Part shown: positions 4,211 to 33,874 of the stretch, piece after piece | How the letters are laid out: each line of letters opens with the position of its first letter | How positions within the stretch are numbered: position 1 is the stretch's first letter | Source of the DNA: Betaproteobacteria bacterium | Lineage (GTDB): Bacteria; Pseudomonadota; Gammaproteobacteria; Burkholderiales; SG8-41 | NCBI GenBank assembly: GCA_025356695.1 | Contig: JANXSE010000354.1 | Span: 1 to 47,096 of the forward strand | Length of the DNA stretch: 47,096 nucleotides | Reading direction: 5' to 3' | The notes under the pieces: model-generated | Seen by the model: the letters and a program-made list of their open reading frames with translations, nothing else | Databases searched by the model: none | Told to the model about the DNA's origin: nothing | Position numbers and translations under genes: made by a program

Positions 4211-5197
4211 TCAGTGTTCGACGCCGATTTTGGCGTCTTTTACAACCTTCGCCCACATCGCAGTCTCTTTTTTAACACGCAAAGAAAATTCTTCCGGCGT
4301 GGTGCCTACCGGTTCGGCGCCGATGTCGCGCAGTTTCGCCCGCACTTCGGGCAACTGCAGCACCGCGACGATTTCGCGTTGTGTGCGAACAATCGCTTCC
4401 ACCGGTGCGCCCGCCGGCACGGCGAGGCCAAACCAGACGTCGGTATCGAAACCGCGCACGCCGGCCTCGGCGATGGTCGGCACCTCCGGCAGCAGTTCGG
4501 AACGCCGTGCGGTGCTGACACCGAGCGCGCGCAAACGGCGCGCTTTCACGTACGGTAGCGCCGCCGGCGTGTTGAAAAACAGCATCGCAATCTGGCCGGC
4601 GATCAGATCCGACGCCGCCGGTGGCCCGCCCTTATAAGGCACGTGAACAATATCGATGCCGGCCATCGATTTGAACAACTCCATCGCCAGATGCAGCGAG
4701 CCGCCCGCGCCGCTCGAACCGTAGTTGACCTGCCCCGGCCGCGCTTTGCACAAGGCGATCAGCTCGCGCACGTTGTGCACCGGCAGCGACGGATTGGTAA
4801 CCAGCAGTTGTGAGGTCGAAGCAACAATGCTGATCGGCGAAAACGATTTGTCGGAATCGTAGGGAAGATTCTTGAACAGGCTGCGATCGACCGTCAACGC
4901 GGTGCTGAGGGTCAGTAACTGGGTGTAGCCATCGGGCGCTGCCGCCGCCGCGAACTGCATGCCGAGACGACCGCCGCCGCCGCCGCGGTTATCCAGCACG
5001 ATCTGCTGCCCCCAGATTTCCGACAATTTCTGCGCGACGACACGACCAACGAGGTCGATGCTGCCGCCCGGCACGAAGGGCACGATCCAGCGCACCGGAC
5101 GCTGTGGAAACATCGCGGTCTCCGCGGCAAAAGCCGGCGTCACCCCCAGTAGCGCGAACAGGGCAACAGCGCGCGCGCTCATTTCACTGCAATTCAA
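4211..5197 (-). CDS. Bug/TctC-family periplasmic solute receptor (2)
   Basis: A receptor of about 328 residues. The start is ambiguous: GAGGAG at 5205-5210 sits 7 bp before an in-frame TTG at 5197, which I chose; an ATG at 5182 gives a clean signal peptide (MSARAVALFALLGVTPAFAA) but has no good ribosome site, and the frame opens at another TTG at 5212. Family marks are RWIVPFVPGGSIDL, LDNRGGGGG, APDGYTQLL, VHVPYKGG and LPEVPTIAEAG. It heads the unit SDR, TauD dioxygenase, HIBADH-like dehydrogenase, so it probably supplies or senses the substrate of that pathway. The ligand is unknown and no permease gene is present. Confidence 0.93.
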   Translation of the reverse strand: MNCSEMSARAVALFALLGVTPAFAAETAMFPQRPVRWIVPFVPGGSIDLVGRVVAQKLSEIWGQQIVLDNRGGGGGRLGMQFAAAAAPDGYTQLLTLSTALTVDRSLFKNLPYDSDKSFSPISIVASTSQLLVTNPSLPVHNVRELIALCKARPGQVNYGSSGAGGSLHLAMELFKSMAGIDIVHVPYKGGPPAASDLIAGQIAMLFFNTPAALPYVKARRLRALGVSTARRSELLPEVPTIAEAGVRGFDTDVWFGLAVPAGAPVEAIVRTQREIVAVLQLPEVRAKLRDIGAEPVGTTPEEFSLRVKKETAMWAKVVKDAKIGVEH

Positions 5198-5384
5198 CGG
5201 CAATCTCCTCAATGCGGCGGCGCAGCGGCCGCCGCTCTCACGGGCCGGCCGGTCGAAGACTGCGCGACACCCATGATACCGCGGGCAGGCATTCCTATTG
5301 CGTCGCGCCGAATTTTCCGCGCCGGCCGGTCAGCTTCGGTAAACTGTGGCGCAGCATTCAACTCAAAGCATAAAGGAAATGGCA

Positions 5385-5825: not shown

Positions 5826-6800
5826 ATGCCGATACCGCTGCGCTGCAAAATTTTTCGCCCGCTGATGGCAGTGTTCGCCGCAGCCATAGCGGCGCATGGC
5901 CCGGCACAGGCGCAGACCTACCCGCAGAAACCGATACGCCTGCTGACGGCCGAAGTCGGCGGCAGCGCGGATTTTTCCGCGCGCACGCTGGCGCGCGCGC
6001 TGTCCGCCAGTCTCGGCCAGCAGGTCGTCGTCGATAATCGTCCGAGCGGCGTGATTCCCCCCGATATTGTCGCCAAGGCGCAGCCCGATGGTTACACGCT
6101 GCTGCTATACAGCAACGGCGTGTGGACGCTGCCGCTGATGCAAGCCGCGCCCTATGACGCGCTGACTGCCTTCGCGCCGGTCAGCCTGACGACGCGTTCG
6201 CCGAATTTTGTCGTCGTGCATACATCGGTGGCGGCGCAATCGATCCGCGAACTGATCGCGCTCGCCAGGGCCAAACCCGGCCAGCTCAACTATGGTTCGG
6301 GCGCGCCGGGTGCAGCGACCCATCTCGCCGGCGAACTGTTCAAACGCATGGCCGGCGTTGAAATCACGCGCATCCCGTACAAGGGCGGCGGCCCGGCGCT
6401 GTCTGCACTGCTAGGCGGCCAGGTGCAGGTCATGTTTCCGACCGCCGCCTCGGTTTCACCGCACGTCAAAGCCGGCCGTTTGCGCGCACTCGCGGTCACC
6501 GGCGCGCAGCCGTCGCCGCTGTTCCCGGAGATACCGACGGTGGCGGCGTCCGGCGTGCCCGGTTACGTCGCCGAACAATATATCGGCGTGTTTGCACCGG
6601 CAAAAACGCCGGTCGCCATCATCAACCTGCTGAATCGCGAACTGATCAACGCGGTACGTCTGCCCGACACCCGGGAGCGTTTCGCCAATGCCGGCGTCGA
6701 ACCCGTCGGCACCACGCCGCAGGAATTTGCCGCTGCCATCAAGGCCGACATCGCGCGCATGATCGTCGTAATCAAGAGTACCGGCATCACTGCCGAATAA
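5826..6800 (+). CDS. Bug/TctC-family periplasmic solute receptor (3), TxExGG subclade
   Basis: A 324-residue receptor with a signal peptide (hydrophobic stretch to about residue 30, ending GPAQA). The usual VPFPPGG loop is replaced by LLTAEVGGSADF, and the ligand-side segment reads LLLYSNGVWTLPLMQ. The same two changes are seen in the receptors at 7746-8798 and 22769-23713, so the three form a subclade. Other marks are VVDNRPSG, QPDGYTLL, RIPYKGGGPAL and FPEIPTVAASGVPG. It is probably co-transcribed with the AroQ-like gene 6 bp upstream and converges on the DapA-like gene. Ligand unknown. Confidence 0.94.
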   Translation: MPIPLRCKIFRPLMAVFAAAIAAHGPAQAQTYPQKPIRLLTAEVGGSADFSARTLARALSASLGQQVVVDNRPSGVIPPDIVAKAQPDGYTLLLYSNGVWTLPLMQAAPYDALTAFAPVSLTTRSPNFVVVHTSVAAQSIRELIALARAKPGQLNYGSGAPGAATHLAGELFKRMAGVEITRIPYKGGGPALSALLGGQVQVMFPTAASVSPHVKAGRLRALAVTGAQPSPLFPEIPTVAASGVPGYVAEQYIGVFAPAKTPVAIINLLNRELINAVRLPDTRERFANAGVEPVGTTPQEFAAAIKADIARMIVVIKSTGITAE

Positions 6801-14748: not shown

Positions 14749-15732
14749 ATGATCCATTCGCAATTCAACTGCATGCGCGTTGTAATCGGCGCTTTGGCGC
14801 TGCTCGTTGCCGCGACCGCAGCGGCGCAAACCGGCACATTCCCGACGCGGCCGATCCGCATGGTGGTCGGCTTCACGCCGGGCGGACAACCCGACATTAC
14901 TGCGCGCATGCTGACGCCGCAGCTTTACGAAGCGCTGGGGCAACAGGTGATTGTCGATAACCGGCCGGGCGCGGGCGGTGTGGTGGCGGCAAAAATCGTC
15001 GCTGATGCGAACGCCGACGGCCATACACTGTTGTTCGCATCAATCGCGCACGTTACGATCCCGGCGGTCCACGCGAAGCTTCCGTACGACACGATCCGCG
15101 ATTTCGCCGGCATCACTCTGACCAGCACCGCGTGCTTTTTGCTGGTGGTGCCGGCGACACTCAATGTCAAAAGCGCACAGGAGCTGATTGCGCTCGCCAA
15201 AGCAAAGCCGGGGCAACTCAACTACGGCTCCGGTGGCATCGGCAGCGGCGCGCATTTCGCCGCCGAGATGTTCAAACACAGCGCCAATCTCGACGCCGTG
15301 CATGTGCCCTATCGCGGCATCCCGGAAGCGTTGACCGATCTGATCAGCGGACGACTGCAGTTTTTTCTCTCGCCGCTGGCGAGTGCGGTGTCGCTGGTGC
15401 GCGAGGGCAAGATACGCGCGCTCGCGGTCACCGCAAAAAAACGCGTCGCCGTCTACGCTGATGTGCCCACACTCGCCGAATCGGGTTTACCCGGCTTCGA
15501 ATGGAATTCATGGTCGGGTCTGCTGGCGCCGGCAAAAACGCCGCGCCCGGTTATCGACAAGCTCAATCGTGAGATCACGCGCGTGCTCAACCAGCCCGAG
15601 TTGCAGCAACGCCTTTTATCGATGGGCGCCGCAGCCTCGCCGACCACGCCGGCGGAATTCGACAAAATGATCGCCACCCAGGTCGCGCTAACCACGAAGC
15701 TGGCGCGTCAGGCCGGCATCAAACCGGAATAA
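14749..15732 (+). CDS. Bug/TctC-family periplasmic solute receptor (5)
   Basis: A 327-residue receptor. The signal peptide MRVVIGALALLVAATAAAQ begins at the internal ATG 14773; the ATG at 14749 is kept here but either may be used, as neither has a strong ribosome site. Landmarks are RMVVGFTPGGQPDI, VDNRPGAGG, NADGHTLLF, VHVPYRGI and YADVPTLAESGLPGF. Its stop codon abuts the convergent ferredoxin gene (stop at 15733). It lies opposite the AprA/AprB-like pair, so a functional link to that pair is possible but not implied by strand. Ligand unknown. Confidence 0.94.
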   Translation: MIHSQFNCMRVVIGALALLVAATAAAQTGTFPTRPIRMVVGFTPGGQPDITARMLTPQLYEALGQQVIVDNRPGAGGVVAAKIVADANADGHTLLFASIAHVTIPAVHAKLPYDTIRDFAGITLTSTACFLLVVPATLNVKSAQELIALAKAKPGQLNYGSGGIGSGAHFAAEMFKHSANLDAVHVPYRGIPEALTDLISGRLQFFLSPLASAVSLVREGKIRALAVTAKKRVAVYADVPTLAESGLPGFEWNSWSGLLAPAKTPRPVIDKLNREITRVLNQPELQQRLLSMGAAASPTTPAEFDKMIATQVALTTKLARQAGIKPE

Positions 15733-20682: not shown

Positions 20683-21645
20683 CTAGCGGTAAACCTTCTG
20701 CCCGGCGTCGCGCAGCATGCCGCGGATCTGTTCGCCGAATTCACGTGACGACTTCATCGTTTCTTCGCCGCGCTGAAAACCGTCTTCGAACTGGTTTTCG
20801 TCGAGGTATTTACGCCACTCCGGGCTTTTGACCAGCCGCGCGAACACGTTCTCCCAGTAGGCAACCGCTTCGCGCGAAATGCCCGGCGGCGCCACCACGC
20901 CGCGCATCGCCGGATAGCTTTGAATATTGAAACCCGCTTCCTGTATGGTCGGCACGTCGGGATAACTCGGCAGCCGTTTGCCCGCGATCTGCGCTACCGG
21001 ACGCAGCGAGCCGCGCCGCACGTACTCGCCGATTTCCTGCGGCTCGGCGACCAGCAGTTGCATATGACCGCCGAGCAATGCGGTAACGCGCTCGCCGCCG
21101 CCCGGAAATGAAATATAGCTCCACTGCGCGCCGGTCATCTTCTGCAGCAGCAGGCGCACAAAATTGCCACGCGTCTGCAACGAGCCGCCGGCCTGCAGTA
21201 ATTTGCCCGGCTCCTTCTTCGCCGCCTCGATGAAATCCTTCAGCGTACGATAGGGCGCATCGGCCTTGACCAGCACCAGCGCCGATTCGAGCACCAGACG
21301 CGCCACCGGCGTCATTTCAAACAGCGTAACCTTGGCCTCCTCGGCAAGCATGGGCGTGATCACCCAGGCCGTCGTAAACATCGCCAGCGTGTGCGGATCG
21401 CCGCGCTTCTCCATCACGTAGGCCATCGCCGTGGCGCCGCCGCCACCGGTGCGGTTATGCACCTGGTTGCGCACCGGAATCAGTTTTTCCTTTTCCAGCG
21501 TCACACTGATAAAACGCGCCAGCACATCCGAACCGCCGCCCGGCGCGTTATGCACGACGATCTCGAGCGGGCGCGTCGGCACGAAAGCCTGCGCCATCGC
21601 CACCGCCGGCAGCAACGCCAGCAGCACAAACATGAATCTCCGCAT
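20683..21645 (-). CDS. TctC-family periplasmic receptor (7), divergent branch
   Basis: A 320-residue receptor with signal peptide MRRFMFVLLALLPAVAMAQA. It is more distant from the other receptors here and nearer to classical TctC: LEIVVHNAPGGGSDVLAR, HNRTGGGG, GDPHTLAMFTTAW in place of the usual PDGYTLL, and ISFPGGGERVTALLGG in place of VPYKGG. GGGGAGG lies just before the ATG. It is translationally coupled to the aldo/keto reductase gene downstream and divergent from the receptor at 21794 across a 148-bp gap. It may take a di- or tricarboxylate; not provable from sequence. Confidence 0.92.
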   Translation of the reverse strand: MRRFMFVLLALLPAVAMAQAFVPTRPLEIVVHNAPGGGSDVLARFISVTLEKEKLIPVRNQVHNRTGGGGATAMAYVMEKRGDPHTLAMFTTAWVITPMLAEEAKVTLFEMTPVARLVLESALVLVKADAPYRTLKDFIEAAKKEPGKLLQAGGSLQTRGNFVRLLLQKMTGAQWSYISFPGGGERVTALLGGHMQLLVAEPQEIGEYVRRGSLRPVAQIAGKRLPSYPDVPTIQEAGFNIQSYPAMRGVVAPPGISREAVAYWENVFARLVKSPEWRKYLDENQFEDGFQRGEETMKSSREFGEQIRGMLRDAGQKVYR

Positions 21646-21793: not shown

Positions 21794-22759
21794 ATGTATT
21801 TCACGTCAAGACAGTGCGCTGCGGCATTGCTGCTCGCCGCGCTCCCGGCCATGGCTGCCGCGCAGAATTATCCGACGCGGCCGATCCGCCTGCTCTGCCC
21901 GATCGCGCCGGGCGGCGGGCTGGATGTGATTGCGCGCGGCATTGCGCCGCCGCTGTCGGAAAATCTGAAAACCTCGGTGGTTGTAGACAACCGGCCCGGC
22001 GCCAGCGGCGCCATCGCGATGGAAGTCACAGCGCACGCCGCGCCCGACGGCTACACGCTGGTCATCATGAGCGTGACCGCGGTGGTCTTTCCCGAACTCA
22101 ACAAGACCGCCTACGACATGTTCCGCGATTTCGCGCCGGTCTCGCAGATTTCAGCCGCGCCTTATGTGCTGGCCGTGTATCCGGGGCTGCCGGCAAATAC
22201 GGTGAGCGAATTCGTTGCTTACGCCAAGGCCAACCCCGGCAAGCTCACGTACGCGTCATCCGGCATCTCGTCGCTGCAGCAGTTGTCGACCGAGCTGTTT
22301 GCGTCGATGACTGGCACGAAGTTCGTGCACATCCCGTACAAAGGTGTGGGCGCGGCGTTTCCGGATTTGATCGCCGGCCGCACGCAACTGACGATTTCCA
22401 GCACCGCTTCACTCGGCGGCATGTTCCGCTCAAAATATCTGCGCCCGATCGCGGTGACCACCACGCAGCGCACCGCGCAACTGCCCGATGTGCCAACCAT
22501 GATCGAATCGGGCGTGCCCGGTTTTGTCGTTACGCAGTGGCACGGCCTGCTCGCACCTGCCAACACGCCGCCGGCGATCATCAATCGCCTCTATCAGGGC
22601 GTCGCCGCAGTACTGAAAAGTCCCGACGTGATCGCGCGGCTTGCCGCCGATGGTGCCGAACCGGTCGGCAGCACGCCCGCACAGTTCACCGCGCACATGA
22701 AAACCGAACGCACGAAATGGATCAAAGCGATCAAGGACTCCGGCATCAGCGCGCAATAG
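21794..22759 (+). CDS. Bug/TctC-family periplasmic solute receptor (8)
   Basis: A 321-residue receptor with a signal peptide ending PAMAAAQ. Landmarks are RLLCPIAPGGGLDV, VDNRPGASG, APDGYTLV, VHIPYKGVG and LPDVPTMIESGVPGF. GAGGAG sits 6 bp before the ATG. The first hydrophobic segment contains an unusual Cys pair around the signal peptide and start of the mature chain (QCAA and LLCP), unlikely to be functionally important. It stands alone on the plus strand between receptor genes on the minus strand. Ligand unknown. Confidence 0.94.
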   Translation: MYFTSRQCAAALLLAALPAMAAAQNYPTRPIRLLCPIAPGGGLDVIARGIAPPLSENLKTSVVVDNRPGASGAIAMEVTAHAAPDGYTLVIMSVTAVVFPELNKTAYDMFRDFAPVSQISAAPYVLAVYPGLPANTVSEFVAYAKANPGKLTYASSGISSLQQLSTELFASMTGTKFVHIPYKGVGAAFPDLIAGRTQLTISSTASLGGMFRSKYLRPIAVTTTQRTAQLPDVPTMIESGVPGFVVTQWHGLLAPANTPPAIINRLYQGVAAVLKSPDVIARLAADGAEPVGSTPAQFTAHMKTERTKWIKAIKDSGISAQ

Positions 22760-22768
22760 CTCGCGCGG

Positions 22769-23713
22769 CTATTCGCGCAGCCCGGCGTCTTCGATCAGTT
22801 TGCCTATGCGCACCATTTCGGCTTTGATCACCGCAGTGGCTTCCTGCGGCGTACTCGCAATCACTTCAAGGCCGGCGGCGAACAAACGTTCTTTCACCTC
22901 GGGCAGGTTGAGCGCGCGCGCCACTTCGGCGTGGATGCGCGCGATCACCGCGGCCGCTGTTTTCGCAGGTGCAAACAGCGCCGTGCGCGACTGCGATTCA
23001 TAACCGGGCACACCGGCCTCGGCCATGGTCGGCAAGCCCGGCACGATGGCCGAAGGTTCAAGACTGGTCACCGCCAGCGCGCGCAACCGGCCTTGTTTGA
23101 TGTGCTGGGTCACCGAACCCGCAGTCGGAAACATGACGTGTATCTGGCCGCCGATCACGGCGTTGATCGCCGCCCCCGCGCCTTTGAAGGCGATGCGCTC
23201 GATCTTCGCACCGGTCATTGATTTGAAAAGTTCCGCGGCGAGATGATTGCCCGAGCCGCTGGAGCTCGAGGCGTAATTGAGTTCGCCCGGTCGCGCTTTC
23301 GCCAGCGCAACGAGTTGCGGCACCGTCTTTACCGGCAACGACGGATGCACCGTCAGCAGATTCGGCGAATTCACCGTCAGCGCGATCGGCGCGAAATCGC
23401 GCAGCGGCTCCCACGGCGTATTGCGCCGGAACAGCGGAATGATCCACAAGGGGCTGGTGTAATGCAGCAGCACATGACCATCCGGCGCTGCCTGCTGCGC
23501 AATCTCGACGCCGATGATGCCGCGGTTCTCGACGATGGCCGGTTGACCGAGGTTGTTCGCCAGCGCCTGCGTCATGAAACGCGAGGCGATGTCGGAGGCG
23601 CCGCCGGCTTCGGTGGTAATCATGTGGATCACGCGATTCGGAAAATTCTGCGCCAACGCTGCGCTGCCGCAGCCTGTAAAAAAAACCATCGCGATGAGCG
23701 AGGCGTGTTTCAT
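22769..23713 (-). CDS. Bug/TctC-family periplasmic solute receptor (9), TxExGG subclade
   Basis: A 314-residue receptor with a signal peptide ending SAALAQ. The binding loop is MITTEAGGASDI and the next segment LLHYTSPLWIIPLFR, the same signature as the receptors at 5826 and 7746. Other marks are VENRG, APDGHVLL, IAFKGAGAAINA and VPGLPTMAEAGVPGY. Its ATG overlaps the stop of the preceding receptor gene (ATGA at 23710-23713), so the two tandem receptors are translationally coupled. This is the last gene of the unit ModA-like, SDR, Bug, Bug. Confidence 0.94.
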   Translation of the reverse strand: MKHASLIAMVFFTGCGSAALAQNFPNRVIHMITTEAGGASDIASRFMTQALANNLGQPAIVENRGIIGVEIAQQAAPDGHVLLHYTSPLWIIPLFRRNTPWEPLRDFAPIALTVNSPNLLTVHPSLPVKTVPQLVALAKARPGELNYASSSSGSGNHLAAELFKSMTGAKIERIAFKGAGAAINAVIGGQIHVMFPTAGSVTQHIKQGRLRALAVTSLEPSAIVPGLPTMAEAGVPGYESQSRTALFAPAKTAAAVIARIHAEVARALNLPEVKERLFAAGLEVIASTPQEATAVIKAEMVRIGKLIEDAGLRE

Positions 23714-24675
23714 TCGAGCGTGATACCGGAAACCCTGATCGCCTTTCGCATCTTGTCGATCTGGCGGCGTATGTGTTCGGCGTATTCACGCGGCGTCGAA
23801 CCCAAAGCATCAGCGCCGAGTTCGGCCAGCCGCGCGCGGAATTCGACATTCTTCAGCATGTGCAATTGTTCGGCGTTGATTCTGGCGACGATCTCGCGCG
23901 GTGTGCCGGCCGGCGCAGCCAGTCCGTACCATCCGGTCCATTCGTACCCTGGCACCGTCTCCGCGATCGCCGGCAAATCAGGCGCAAGCTGCGTGCGTTT
24001 TGCGCTGGTAACGCCAAGCGCGCGTATCTTGCCGACCTTGAGCGATGGAATCACCGCGGTCGCCACCAGCACCGTCAGCTGCAACTGCCCCGCCATTGTA
24101 TCGGTCAGCGCCTGCGGCGTGCCTTTATACGGCACGTGCACGAGCTCAATGCCACTCATGCTGCGAAAAAGTTCGGTTGCCAGATGCGACGCGGTGCCGG
24201 TGCCCGGCGTGCCGTAGTTGATGCTGCCCGGTTTGCTTTTCGCATAGGCGATCAACTCGCGAATATTGCCGACCGGCAGGGCCGCATTCACCACCAGAAT
24301 CAGCGGCGTCGAGGCGAGCAGACTGACAGGCGCAAAATCCCTGACGAGATCGTAGCCGAGCTTGTCGCTCAAGGCGGCGGCGTTGGCCTGCTGGGAAGTA
24401 ACCATCAGCAGGGTGTAGCCATCGGGTGCTGCGCGCGCAACAATTTCCGCACCGATGTTGCCGCTGGCACCGGCGCGATTGTCGATCACAATCTGCTGAC
24501 CGAGCGCCTGCGTCAGGCGGTCGGCGACAATGCGCGTCACCACATCGGCGCCGGAGCCGGCCGTGTTCGTCACCACAATGCGGATCGGCCGTACGGGATA
24601 CGGCGCTTCGGCAGCGCGCGCATTCGCGCCTGCGCCCGCAAGCAATACCATCAGCAGTTTTGACATGCGGGTCAT
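23710..24675 (-). CDS. Bug/TctC-family periplasmic solute receptor (10)
   Basis: A 321-residue receptor; signal peptide MSKLLMVLLAGAGANARA, with the start at ATG 24675 or the in-frame ATG at 24666. Landmarks are RIVVTNTAGSGADVV (the PGG loop is changed to AGSG), IDNRAGASG, APDGYTLL, VHVPYKGT and APDLPAIAETVPGY. It overlaps the next receptor gene by 4 bp. The SDR gene lies 53 bp upstream on the same strand. Tandem coupled receptors suggest either two ligands of one pathway or a heterologous pair; the sequence does not say which. Confidence 0.93.
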   Translation of the reverse strand: MTRMSKLLMVLLAGAGANARAAEAPYPVRPIRIVVTNTAGSGADVVTRIVADRLTQALGQQIVIDNRAGASGNIGAEIVARAAPDGYTLLMVTSQQANAAALSDKLGYDLVRDFAPVSLLASTPLILVVNAALPVGNIRELIAYAKSKPGSINYGTPGTGTASHLATELFRSMSGIELVHVPYKGTPQALTDTMAGQLQLTVLVATAVIPSLKVGKIRALGVTSAKRTQLAPDLPAIAETVPGYEWTGWYGLAAPAGTPREIVARINAEQLHMLKNVEFRARLAELGADALGSTPREYAEHIRRQIDKMRKAIRVSGITLE

Positions 24676-29067: not shown

Positions 29068-30060
29068 TCAGCGGGCAAGTCCGGCCTGCTTCAGCGTTTC
29101 CGCACCGGTCACGGCCTCACGCGCCAGCAGCGCCCTGAATTCCGCCGGTGTATTTGATGGCGCGGGCTCGGCACCGTCGAGCGCGAGGTTCTTCGCGACC
29201 TCCGGCGATTCGAGCGCCAGCGCTGCGTCGCGGTTGATCATTGCAACCAGCGCCCGCGGCATTTTATCGGGACCGAACAGCGAATACGAAGTGTTCAATT
29301 CAAATCCCGGCAGCCCCGCTTCTGCAACCGTCGGCAAATCCGGAAACGCACGCGACTTGCCGCGGCTCGCCACTGCAATCAACCGGAACCGCCCGCTGCG
29401 CACAAAGGGCATGGCCGTCACCGCGTTGGCAAACAACAGCTGAACCTGGCCGCCGGCGAGTTCAGTCACGGCCTGCGCCGAACCCTTGTACGGCACGTGC
29501 ACAATGTTGACGCCCGCCATGCGCTTCAAGCGCTCCATGCCGAGGTGGGAACCCGAACCGATGCCGGATGACGCGTAATTCAGCGCGCCCGGATTGTTTT
29601 TTGCATAAGCAATAATGTCCTTCACGCTTGCGAAAGGCTGCGATGGATTGACCGTCAGCAGGTACGGCTGAACGGTCATCTGCGCAATCGGCGTGAACGC
29701 CTGCAAGGTGTCATATTCGACTTTTTGCAGCAGCGTCGCGGTAGTAACGAGGCCGACGCTGGCAAATAGCAGCGTGTAACCGTCGGGGGTGGCGCGCGCC
29801 ACCAGATCCATTGCAATCGCGCCGCCCGCGCCGCTGCGGTTATCAACGATGACGCTGCGGCCCCAGCGCGTGGTCAGTTGCTGCGCGATCGAACGCGCCA
29901 CAGTATCGGCGCCGTTGCCGGGCGGCACTGCAACGATCAGACGCACCGGGCGCAGCGGAAAATTTTGCGCCTGCCCATTGGCAGCACTCATGGCAATGGG
30001 CAGGCAGGCGGCAAATGCAAGCGGCGAACTCATGCAACCGTAAAAAGTAAGGCTCTTCAT
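29068..30060 (-). CDS. Bug/TctC-family periplasmic solute receptor (11)
   Basis: A 330-residue receptor. The leader is a hydrophobic stretch ending AANGQAQ at about residue 32. Landmarks are RLIVAVPPGNGADTV (second Gly of the loop changed to Asn), VDNRSGAGG, TPDGYTLL, VHVPYKGSAQA and FPDLPTVAEAGLPGF. The stop is 27 bp before the acyl-CoA dehydrogenase gene on the same strand, so the two form a cassette. The gene is divergent from receptor 12 across only 62 bp, implying a shared control region. Ligand unknown. Confidence 0.94.
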   Translation of the reverse strand: MKSLTFYGCMSSPLAFAACLPIAMSAANGQAQNFPLRPVRLIVAVPPGNGADTVARSIAQQLTTRWGRSVIVDNRSGAGGAIAMDLVARATPDGYTLLFASVGLVTTATLLQKVEYDTLQAFTPIAQMTVQPYLLTVNPSQPFASVKDIIAYAKNNPGALNYASSGIGSGSHLGMERLKRMAGVNIVHVPYKGSAQAVTELAGGQVQLLFANAVTAMPFVRSGRFRLIAVASRGKSRAFPDLPTVAEAGLPGFELNTSYSLFGPDKMPRALVAMINRDAALALESPEVAKNLALDGAEPAPSNTPAEFRALLAREAVTGAETLKQAGLAR

Positions 30061-30122: not shown

Positions 30123-31091
30123 ATGAAAAAATTTATCTGCTGCGCGCTGCTTGCACTGATTGCAATGCCCCTCACTGCATCAGCGCAAAAGTATCCGGAA
30201 AAAAGCATACGCCTCGTCGTCGCCTTCCCGACCGGCGCGCCCTATGTAATCGCGCTGATGGTTGCCGACAAACTACGCGAACCGCTCGGACAAAGCATCG
30301 TGCCCGATTTCAAACCCGGCGCCGGCGGCAATGTCGCCTCCGAACTCGTTGCCAAAGCGCCCAACGACGGCTACACACTGCTGCTGACCAGCCCGACCAT
30401 TGCCATCAGTCCGAGTTTGTATTCGAAACTTGGTTATGACACGTTCAAGGATTTCACGCCGATTACTTTATTGGCGACCGTGCCCAATGTGATGGTCGTG
30501 CATCCGTCGGTACCGGCGAAAACGCTGAATGAACTGATCAAGCTCGCCAAAGCTAAACCGGGGGCGTTGAATTTCGGTTCAGGCGGACTCGGCTCGGGCA
30601 GTCAGCTCGGCAGCGAATTGTTCAAGACGCTGTCGAAAATAAACATCGTGCATGTGCCTTACAAAGGCGCGGCGATTGCGATGAACGCCATGCTCTCCGG
30701 CGAAGTCGATATGGTAACGTCAACAGTGCCGGCCACCATACCGCTGGTCAACGCCGGCCGCATCCGCGCGCTGGCGGTCATGGCCAACGAGCGCGTCGCC
30801 ACGCTGCCGCAAGTGCCGACGACTGCCGAAGCCGGCATGCCTGAACTCGTTGTGACGACGTGGTACGGTTTGTTCGCGCCCTCCGGCATCAAACCCGAAA
30901 TCGTCGCGCGCCTGCACGAAGAATTCGCCAAGGTGATGAAATCACCCGACGTGAAATCCAAACTCGCGCAGGTCGAACTCGATGCAACCACCAGCACAAC
31001 GCCGGCCGACTTCGCGAAATTCGTACGCGCCGAACACGACAAGTGGGGGCGTGTAATTAAAGAAGCGGGCATTCAAGTACAGCAGCAGTAG
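30123..31091 (+). CDS. Bug/TctC-family periplasmic solute receptor (12)
   Basis: A 322-residue receptor with signal peptide MKKFICCALLALIAMPLTASAQ. The first ligand loop is unusual (RLVVAFPTGAPYVIAL instead of VPFPPGGxxDxxAR), losing the conserved Asp that hydrogen-bonds the ligand in Bug structures. Other landmarks are normal: PDFKPGAGG, PNDGYTLL, VHVPYKGAA and LPQVPTTAEAG. GAGGAG lies just before the ATG. It stands alone on the plus strand, convergent with an alpha/beta hydrolase gene. The altered loop suggests a different ligand class or weaker binding. Confidence 0.93.
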   Translation: MKKFICCALLALIAMPLTASAQKYPEKSIRLVVAFPTGAPYVIALMVADKLREPLGQSIVPDFKPGAGGNVASELVAKAPNDGYTLLLTSPTIAISPSLYSKLGYDTFKDFTPITLLATVPNVMVVHPSVPAKTLNELIKLAKAKPGALNFGSGGLGSGSQLGSELFKTLSKINIVHVPYKGAAIAMNAMLSGEVDMVTSTVPATIPLVNAGRIRALAVMANERVATLPQVPTTAEAGMPELVVTTWYGLFAPSGIKPEIVARLHEEFAKVMKSPDVKSKLAQVELDATTSTTPADFAKFVRAEHDKWGRVIKEAGIQVQQQ

Positions 31092-32091: not shown

Positions 32092-32757
32092 ATGAGCGAC
32101 CAACCCAAACTGCTGATCGAAATCGTCTCCGACGTCGTCTGACCCTGGTGTTTCATCGGCAAGCGCCGCCTCGAAGCCGCACTGCGGATGTACGAGGAAC
32201 GCGCCACCGATGGAGAAAAACCGGCCGTGCGCTGGTTGCCGTTTCAGTTGAACCCTGATCTGCCGGAAACCGGCATCTCGCGCCAGGAATACATCGAACG
32301 CAAGTTCGGCCCCGGCGGCGGACGTAAATATGAACATGTTGCGCAGGTCGGCAAATCGGTCGGCATCGACTTCGCCTTCGACAACATCAAGGTGCAGCCG
32401 AACACCGTGCAGGCGCACCGCCTGATGCACTACGCCACCAATCAGGGCCATGAAGACGCTGTGGCGGAAAGCATCTTCGCCGCCTACTTCATCGAAGGCG
32501 CAAATCTCACCGATCTGAAAACGCTCGCAGACATCGGCGCACGCGGCGGTCTCGACCGCGCCGCACTCGAAACCTATCTTGCGTCCAACGAAGACCGCGA
32601 CCTTATCATCGCCAAAGACAACGAAATCCGCCAGTCCGGCGTCAGCGGCGTGCCCTTCTTCATTTTCAACCGCAAGATCGCCGTGTCGGGCGCGCACGAA
32701 GCGGAAACATTGTTGAAAGCGATGCTGGAGTCAATCGCGCCCTCAACACCCGGTTAG
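32092..32757 (+). CDS. FrnE/DsbA-family oxidoreductase, predicted selenoprotein (UGA at codon 17)
   Basis: A 221-residue thioredoxin-fold protein of the FrnE/2-hydroxychromene-carboxylate isomerase-like DsbA family, read through one in-frame TGA at 32140-32142. ATG 32092 has AAGGA 6 bp upstream. The N-terminal active site reads SDVV-U17-PWC20-FIGKRRLEAAL, where homologues have VCPWC, so the UGA replaces exactly the first CxxC cysteine. After the UGA the frame continues to the stop with clear family sequence, including the cis-Pro signature GVSGVPFFIFNRKIAVSGAH. It has no signal peptide, so it is a cytoplasmic redox enzyme. A possible SECIS hairpin lies at 32150-32177. An automated caller would start it at the ATG 32188 and lose the active site. 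A point mutation is the main alternative. Confidence 0.88.
32150..32177 (+). promoter_or_regulatory. Putative bacterial SECIS hairpin in the FrnE-like gene
   Basis: Downstream of the UGA the RNA can fold GUUUC-AU-CGGC, loop AAGC, GCCG-CCUC-GAAGC: an upper 4-bp GC stem and a lower 5-bp stem with one internal loop. The apical loop begins 19 nt after the UGA and includes G, compatible with SelB-type elements. It was found by eye, without energy calculation. Confidence 0.55.
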
Positions 32758-32775
32758 CAGGAAACTCACCCTGAG

Positions 32776-32800
32776 AGCCGCCGGGTCGGCCCCGGCGGCT
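32776..32800 (+). terminator. Terminator-like hairpin between the two convergent selenoprotein genes
   Basis: A perfect 10-bp stem (AGCCGCCGGG / CCCGGCGGCT) around a 5-nt loop, 19 bp after the FrnE-like stop, followed by TTCATTTC. The T tract is interrupted, so it is a probable rather than ideal intrinsic terminator. A second small hairpin, CCATCC/GGATGG, lies at 32816-32831 near the peroxiredoxin stop. Confidence 0.7.
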
Positions 32801-32838
32801 TTCATTTCTGCATGCCCATCCAACCGGATGGACATTCG

Positions 32839-33300
32839 CTAAAACGCCTGCAACCGTTCCAGCAAATCCTTGCTCTCCGGAATGGTTCCCTGCTGATACA
32901 GATGTGAATGACGAATCACGCCCGCTGCATCGATCAGAAACGCCGATCGCGCATCGATACCGCGTTCATCGTTGAAAACGCCAAACGCCTTGCCGATGGC
33001 GCCGTGCGGCCAGTAATCAGACAGCAGAGGAAACGGCAGACCGCCCAGTTGCTCCGCCCAGGTCTTCAGACTGGGAATAGTGTCAGCGCTGATTTGCAGA
33101 ATTTCGACATTAAGCGCTTTGAATGCTTCGTAGTTCTCACGGAACCCGAGTACTTGATTCTTTCAGCCGCCGGTAAAAGCGAACGGCAGAAATGAAACCA
33201 CCGTCTTGCGGCCGCGAAAACCGGAGAGCTTTTGCGGATCGCCGGCGTGCGCTGCGAGTGAAAATTCCGGCGCCTGGGCACCGGGCTGGAGTATTGCCAT
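32839..33300 (-). CDS. Peroxiredoxin (AhpE/BCP-like redoxin), predicted selenoprotein (UGA at codon 46)
   Basis: A 153-residue peroxiredoxin read through one in-frame TGA at 33163-33165. The N-terminus MAILQPGAQAPEFSLAAH and FRGRKTVVSFLPFAFTGG lead directly to U46, where peroxiredoxins carry the peroxidatic Cys (AFTGVC in the family). Then KNQVLGFRENYEAF follows, with VEILQISADTIPSLKTWA, PFPLLSDYWPHGAIGKAFGV, and RSAFLIDAAGVIRHSHLY to a TAG stop; all are peroxiredoxin landmarks. It would reduce peroxides with a selenol. No second Cys is visible, suggesting a 1-Sec mechanism using an external thiol, perhaps the neighbouring FrnE-like protein (inference). A possible SECIS hairpin is at 33133-33153. 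Confidence 0.9.
33133..33153 (-). promoter_or_regulatory. Putative bacterial SECIS hairpin in the peroxiredoxin gene
   Basis: On the minus-strand RNA, GUACUC pairs with GAGAAC (one A-A mismatch), enclosing GGGUUCCGU, in which GG/CC can pair further. The loop begins about 16 nt after the UGA (19 nt if the inner GG/CC pairs form) and starts with G, as bacterial SECIS loops tend to. Found by eye only. Confidence 0.5.
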
Positions 33301-33424
33301 GTTGTTTCTCCTTGGGTAATGGACAACGCGAATATGATCGCACGTTCCGGTAAATTCCGGCACGCCTTTGCCGCACAATGCCCATGTCGCCGCCAGGGTC
33401 ACGCGGCAGCGTAAAATTGCCGCA

Positions 33425-33874
33425 ATGAACGATCACTATCTCGAAGATTACGCGGTCGGCCAGGCCTTCGACTCCGGCCGCCTGCGCGTAGGCGCCACGG
33501 CGATCCGTGAATTTGCCGCCGCCTACGACCCGCAGCCCTTCCATCTCGACGATGCTGCCGCGCGCGACACGCTGTTCCAGGGGCTGGCGGCGAGCGGCTG
33601 GCATACCGCGGCGCTAACGATGCGCCTGCTGGTCGAGAGTGATTTGAAACCAGCCGGCGGACTCATCGGCGCCGGCCTCGATGAAATGCGCTGGCCGCTG
33701 CCGGTGCGGCCCGGCGATGAACTGCACGCACGCAGCGAAATCATCGAAGTGCGGCGCTCGAAGTCGCGCCCGCAGTCCGGCATTATTAAAATCCGCACCA
33801 CCACATTCAATCAGCACGATGAGCCGGTGCAGGTATTCGTCGCCAATCTGCTGGTACCGGCGCGCGAGCACTAA
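33425..33874 (+). CDS. MaoC-family hot-dog dehydratase
   Basis: A 149-residue single hot-dog-fold protein of the MaoC/R-hydratase family. The ATG at 33425 begins MNDHYLEDYAVGQAF, and the hydratase motif appears as FAAAYDPQPFHLDDAAAR (Asp and His of the catalytic pair) with ASGWHTAALTMRLLVE. It should hydrate a 2-enoyl-CoA or act on a related thioester. The start is divergent from the selenoperoxiredoxin gene across 124 bp. Its TAA overlaps the ATG of the next small frame (TAATG), suggesting that gene was once translationally coupled. Confidence 0.9.
   Translation: MNDHYLEDYAVGQAFDSGRLRVGATAIREFAAAYDPQPFHLDDAAARDTLFQGLAASGWHTAALTMRLLVESDLKPAGGLIGAGLDEMRWPLPVRPGDELHARSEIIEVRRSKSRPQSGIIKIRTTTFNQHDEPVQVFVANLLVPAREH

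Follow-up and report, generated by a model that had tools for sequence, protein, structure and literature searches.

The probably recoded reading frame and its surroundings

The window, by which we mean the whole stretch of 47,096 nucleotides that was analysed, carries on its minus strand a frame from 33300 to 32839 that encodes 153 residues followed by a stop codon (TAG) and contains a single in-frame TGA, at codon 46. The features in and around this frame are the following:

32839..33300, minus strand: predicted Sec-containing AhpE-type peroxiredoxin, 153 residues, ATG to TAG (translation with TGA as U; Pfam AhpC-TSA; nearest solved structure M. tuberculosis AhpE)
33163..33165, minus strand: in-frame TGA at residue 46, the peroxidatic position, predicted selenocysteine (aligned with the Cys of AhpE; codon conservation)
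33307..33313, minus strand: Shine-Dalgarno-like AAGGAGA upstream of the ATG (direct reading of the sequence)
32188..32757, plus strand: gene of a DSBA-domain oxidoreductase, convergent with the peroxiredoxin gene (Pfam DSBA, 4.5e-25)
432-1424, 4211-5212, 5826-6800, 14749-15732, 20683-21645, 21794-22759, 23710-24675, 29068-30060 and 30123-31091: TctC genes (Pfam)

Translation of the frame bore out a preliminary description of the locus, which had proposed a minus-strand frame from 33300 reading through one TGA at 33163-33165. Under table 11 this frame yields only a 79-residue ORF (GTG at 33402) ending at the TGA and, downstream of it, a 26-residue ORF (GTG at 32919), so that standard gene callers would lose the 3' part; the proposal that this part has no usable start was essentially right, the 26-residue ORF being the only one after the TGA. 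That the gene is missed entirely by gene callers fits the window. Among the relatives in a protein search, of which the best 120 of 524 were listed, 111 of the 120 are no more than stumps, 89-113 residues in length. Among 41 window ORFs submitted to Pfam, the read-through protein was included, and both of its halves belong to one domain, AhpC-TSA, which covers residues 6-131 and profile positions 1-123 of 124 (E = 2.3e-32). A single near-complete domain spans the TGA, and the downstream landmarks are in frame as had been described. The protein contains no Cys at all, in line with the earlier remark that a resolving Cys is missing. No Rfam family reached its gathering score in the window, and scans for sigma-70 promoters and terminators over positions 32700-33500 gave nothing telling.

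Several of the related loci end at contig ends, which limits the counts of neighbouring genes. A DSBA relative lies near 5/31 betaproteobacterial loci and a MaoC relative near 1/31; because it is found near only these five loci, the DSBA gene was rejected as a fixed or convincing partner of the peroxiredoxin gene. TctC receptors are near 19/31 betaproteobacterial loci, a co-occurrence that probably reflects a large paralogous family. The nine genes for TctC (tripartite tricarboxylate receptors) in the 47 kb window amount to a heavy expansion of solute receptors.

Relationship to AhpE and to known Sec-peroxiredoxins

The seven top matches among solved sequences were M. tuberculosis AhpE or variants of it, with E values from 2e-30 to 4e-29; 2-Cys peroxiredoxins came next, at 2e-16. 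An AlphaFold2 model based on eight sequences had a mean pLDDT of 76.8, with the lowest confidence at residues 41-46, and in a fold search of the PDB with this model the top 12 chains were all M. tuberculosis AhpE (TM about 0.89). The initial label 'AhpE/BCP-like' was upheld in its AhpE-like half by both sequence and fold, BCP-like being the weaker label. In the alignment the P-x3-T-x2-C(U) motif and the active-site Arg are present as P39, T43, U46 and Arg118, and the TGA coincides with the peroxidatic Cys of AhpE, which is the position assigned to it at the outset. The Arg residue is encoded as follows:

32947..32949, minus strand: codon of Arg118, counterpart of AhpE Arg116 (alignment; invariant across the 8 rows of alignment A1)

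In AhpE, Thr42 and Arg116 form hydrogen bonds with the peroxidatic Cys45 (available part of PMC4965862). The window protein resembles M. tuberculosis AhpE (Rv2238c) in fold, in its about equal length, in the P-x3-T-x2-C/U motif with the Arg and, in the alignment, in having no second Cys at position +5. It differs in carrying a predicted Sec where AhpE has Cys45, with 36% identity in the structural alignment, and in having Gln49 where AhpE has Glu48 near the active-site Cys (same part of PMC4965862).

Sec-peroxiredoxins with a TxxU motif are an established family, as far as described in the accessible parts of PMC1088965, PMC9312934 and PMC13188914. According to the same excerpts, PrxU of Eubacterium acidaminophilum and the marine Prx (COG1225/PF00578) have in common with the window protein the peroxidatic Sec in TxxU and Pfam PF00578. 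In contrast to PrxU, the window protein scored 80.7 bits with the NCBIfam PrxU model (NF040737), below its cut-off of 270, and it is set apart from TxxU Sec-Prx by being AhpE-type and betaproteobacterial, the marine TxxU sequences being compared by their description. On sequence grounds, the predicted product of the window gene is an AhpE-type member of the TxxU Sec-peroxiredoxins that was previously misannotated. The actinobacterial Cys-containing AhpE-like proteins (L032-L080 except L063 and L065) are 38-49% identical to it over the domain.

The TGA codon and the Sec machinery among relatives

A genome scan with one genome per species was carried out and the best 80 of 571 confirmed relatives were used. 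Within these 80, the site is TGA in 31/31 loci of the betaproteobacterial group (62-88% protein identity) and in 2/2 Chloroflexi loci. The 47 actinobacterial loci all have a Cys codon there, TGC or TGT. TGA likewise occupies the site in 11/11 additional loci of Burkholderiales genomes, and the protein sequence flanking it is conserved to either side. By their record titles, 29 of the 31 group loci belong to Betaproteobacteria, Burkholderiales or Bordetella, the remaining two being titled 'bacterium' (L016) and 'proteobacterium' (L018). Two metagenome bins titled Bordetella parapertussis (L017 and L029) carry the gene; these titles look doubtful, since in the tree both fall among bins of environmental Burkholderiales. 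The habitats named in the relatives' record titles are soil, groundwater and lakes.

Residues other than Cys or Sec at this position, singled out by the preliminary description as the observation that would speak against a selenoprotein, were found only in database proteins, the 80 loci showing TGA or a Cys codon throughout. Eighteen of the 120 listed proteins were inspected. The nine short ones all start downstream of the TGA, and the nine that span the site have Trp in seven cases (P0002, P0003, P0004, P0006, P0008, P0010 and P0011), Cys in one (P0007) and Leu in one (P0005). We take the Trp residues to be the gene caller's reading of TGA, and the Leu is perhaps an error. P0007 is a Cys orthologue with 64% identity. 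In a tree of 92 rows, which takes in the later loci L081-L084, L087 and L092-L096 and leaves out L085, L086 and L088-L091, the Sec/Cys label needs two changes and P0007 falls inside or beside the betaproteobacterial Sec group, the fork being open; long branches were flagged by the program.

Three parts of the Sec machinery, selB, selD and tRNA-Sec, were searched for in the genomes that carry L001-L031, L063 and L065 (33 genomes) and in 14 control genomes. Matches to selB above the cut-off were obtained in 32/33 relatives' genomes vs 2/14 controls, with the same counts for selD (32/33 vs 2/14). At the gathering score, tRNA-Sec was detected in 30/33 relatives; as this score was also passed by 5/14 controls, tRNA-Sec was counted at a score of at least 61 bits, which left 29/33 relatives' genomes. 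The relatives' genomes without a machinery match are single metagenome bins and perhaps incomplete. We also drew 300 Burkholderiales genomes evenly from the order of G005, with G005 included by design. In this sample 19/300 genomes carry the orthologue (E below 1e-49), each with the TGA (the copy of G161 lies in two pieces on two contigs), and no Cys orthologue was found at E below 1e-49. The selB gene is present in 83/300 genomes, namely in 19/19 with the peroxiredoxin gene vs 64/281 without it (Fisher p = 4.8e-12, a value that ignores shared descent).

The best selD match itself contains a TGA in 25/31 betaproteobacterial genomes, and in 4/4 fetched copies its context is SHGGG-U-GCK. In these four (L097, L098, L099 and L100), SelD is itself UGA-containing, and in three of them the predicted fold places a GUU loop 20 nt beyond the UGA, a spacing similar to that of the peroxiredoxin hairpin described below.

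Constraint downstream of the UGA and the predicted enzyme

Downstream of the TGA, a hairpin was predicted and a run of codons free of synonymous variation was observed:

33128..33149, minus strand: predicted bacterial SECIS hairpin, stem UCGGGUUC / GAACU-A-CGA, 5-nt loop CGUGA (covariation score; MFE -5.9 kcal/mol for the window copy)
33130..33147, minus strand: codons +6 to +11 after the TGA (GGG TTC CGT GAG AAC TAC) with frozen synonymous sites (32/32 sequences)

Across the 32 sequences, codons +6 to +11 read GGG TTC CGT G[A/C]G AAC, followed by TAC in 29/32, and synonymous variation is zero in 32/32. The ratio of observed to expected synonymous entropy is 0.00 for these codons vs a median of 0.75 for six-codon windows, whereas the equivalent codons in 47 Cys genes are unconstrained, with 0.95 vs a median of 0.81; the synonymous freeze is absent from the actinobacterial Cys forms. 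The hairpin starts 13 nt and its loop 21 nt after the UGA, and it is built from five stacked pairs, a bulge and three more pairs, with G at the second loop position. The bSECIS model, as given in the accessible part of PMC13188914, has a loop of 3-9 nt, an upper stem of 4-16 bp, a G in loop positions 1-2 and a distance of 16-37 nt from the UGA, and in all four respects the window hairpin lies within the ranges of the model. With -5.9 kcal/mol it stays short of the energy limit of -7.5 kcal/mol given in the same source, a value reached on 48 nt by 12/32 sequences, not all of them through this hairpin.

Pairing was evaluated in two alignments, A2 with 32 rows (26 distinct) and A3 with 43 rows (34 distinct). 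The covariation score was reached by 0/500 shuffles on both the 32 and the 43 aligned sequences, and in the latter 92.3% of cells pair in the hairpin. Only two hairpin pairs change on both sides in the 43 sequences, a number matched by 31/500 shuffles; four of the eight pairs never vary, and pair 17-38 fails in 19 of the 34 distinct rows. When the 3' arm was slid by +2, the number of cells changed on both sides rose (14 vs 8), as did that of pair types (6 vs 5), but only 24.3% of cells pair. The covariation of the hairpin is modest. An alternative hairpin, formed by columns 20-28 and 34-44, pairs in 91.0% of cells; as it has zero both-side changes and no excess over shuffles, it was rejected in favour of the first. 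The synonymous freeze is thus a strong argument for recoding and the exact fold a weaker one, given the modest covariation and the energy of the window copy, which is short of the limit.

The distribution of TGA and Cys, the Sec genes of the relatives and the SECIS-like hairpin under strong synonymous constraint support the preliminary assignment as a likely selenoprotein. On this comparative evidence, the gene very probably encodes an AhpE-type peroxiredoxin with one selenocysteine, inserted at the UGA of codon 46. Insertion of Cys at the UGA, either as the regular decoding or mixed with Sec when selenium is short, would agree with the Cys found in more distant relatives, and Sec-to-Cys misincorporation is known elsewhere; we nevertheless consider it very improbable, as the SECIS-like hairpin together with selB, selD and tRNA-Sec in the relatives points to Sec and as the Sec forms do without the +5 Cys that is seen in 39/47 Cys forms. 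A changed code or a suppressor tRNA, giving tryptophan or some other standard amino acid at the TGA, might be suggested by the seven JGI-sourced database proteins with Trp at the site, but is hardly credible: 11 of the 30 Pfam-matching window ORFs end in TGA, Trp cannot serve as a peroxidatic residue, the actinobacterial relatives have Cys in 47/47 cases (among the best 80 of 571) and the presence of the gene tracks selB. The least probable reading of all is that a Cys codon was turned into a stop by chance, in a pseudogene or through a sequencing error. This takes one base (TGC/TGT to TGA), and the window taken alone does not speak against it, but the TGA is retained by 42/42 other loci of the group, whose proteins are 62-88% identical (31 among the best 80 of 571 and 11 further), by which chance is excluded, and the synonymous sites just downstream of the TGA are more constrained than the rest of the gene.

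For the selenocysteine reading, we propose that SelB and tRNA-Sec decode the UGA at codon 46 as directed by the downstream hairpin. The selenolate, positioned by the P-x3-T-x2-U motif and Arg118, would then attack its substrate, either hydrogen peroxide or an organic hydroperoxide, to give a selenenic acid. An external thiol, such as glutathione/glutaredoxin, thioredoxin or a comparable donor, would reduce this back. Peroxidase activity is expected from membership in the family, and the external reductant is proposed because the window protein itself lacks Cys. M. tuberculosis AhpE is reduced by mycoredoxin/mycothiol, a system that would not be expected in betaproteobacteria. Position +5 holds Cys in 39/47 Cys forms vs 0/33 Sec forms, and this pattern, together with the Cys-free window protein, fits a putative one-Sec enzyme served by an outside thiol; a 1-Sec enzyme had been suggested in the preliminary description from the missing resolving Cys. 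The use of Sec for Cys jointly with the missing +5 Cys offers a natural test of whether Sec can spare a peroxiredoxin a resolving thiol.

In the accessible part of a 2006 survey, formate dehydrogenase is given as the sole selenoprotein of Sec-decoding alpha- and betaproteobacteria (PMC1794560), and among the open-licence papers searched none was found that links selenoproteins and selenocysteine with both Burkholderiales and peroxiredoxin. We lean towards the view that in one Burkholderiales lineage AhpE has been retained almost exclusively as a Sec protein, with the nearby resolving Cys absent and an 18-nt SECIS core frozen, that these are multi-selenoprotein organisms (Sec-AhpE, Sec-SelD and, in some, a second Sec-peroxiredoxin) and that P0007 is a rare reversal. 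If this is true, multi-selenoprotein Burkholderiales would stand against the older picture drawn from the survey. The predicted Sec-AhpE by itself widens the betaproteobacterial selenoproteome beyond formate dehydrogenase. An antioxidant enzyme and the selenium dependence of environmental betaproteobacteria are under-counted, since the gene is invisible in annotation or shortened there to the stumps listed above.

Further TGA-bearing peroxiredoxins were encountered. L081 (G005) and L082 (G198) represent a second peroxiredoxin, more distantly related, whose active site likewise holds an in-frame TGA, in the contexts AFTNA-U-TQEA and AFTKA-U-TQEA; both start with a signal-peptide-like segment, and their host genomes also have Sec-AhpE. 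Among the 300 genomes, a further eight that carry Sec-AhpE gave weaker TGA-bearing matches. A third group, L083 (G204) and L084 (G167), is TGA-bearing and AhpE-like with the context AFTGG-U-SNQ, shares about 43% identity with the window protein and comes from selB-positive Burkholderiales.
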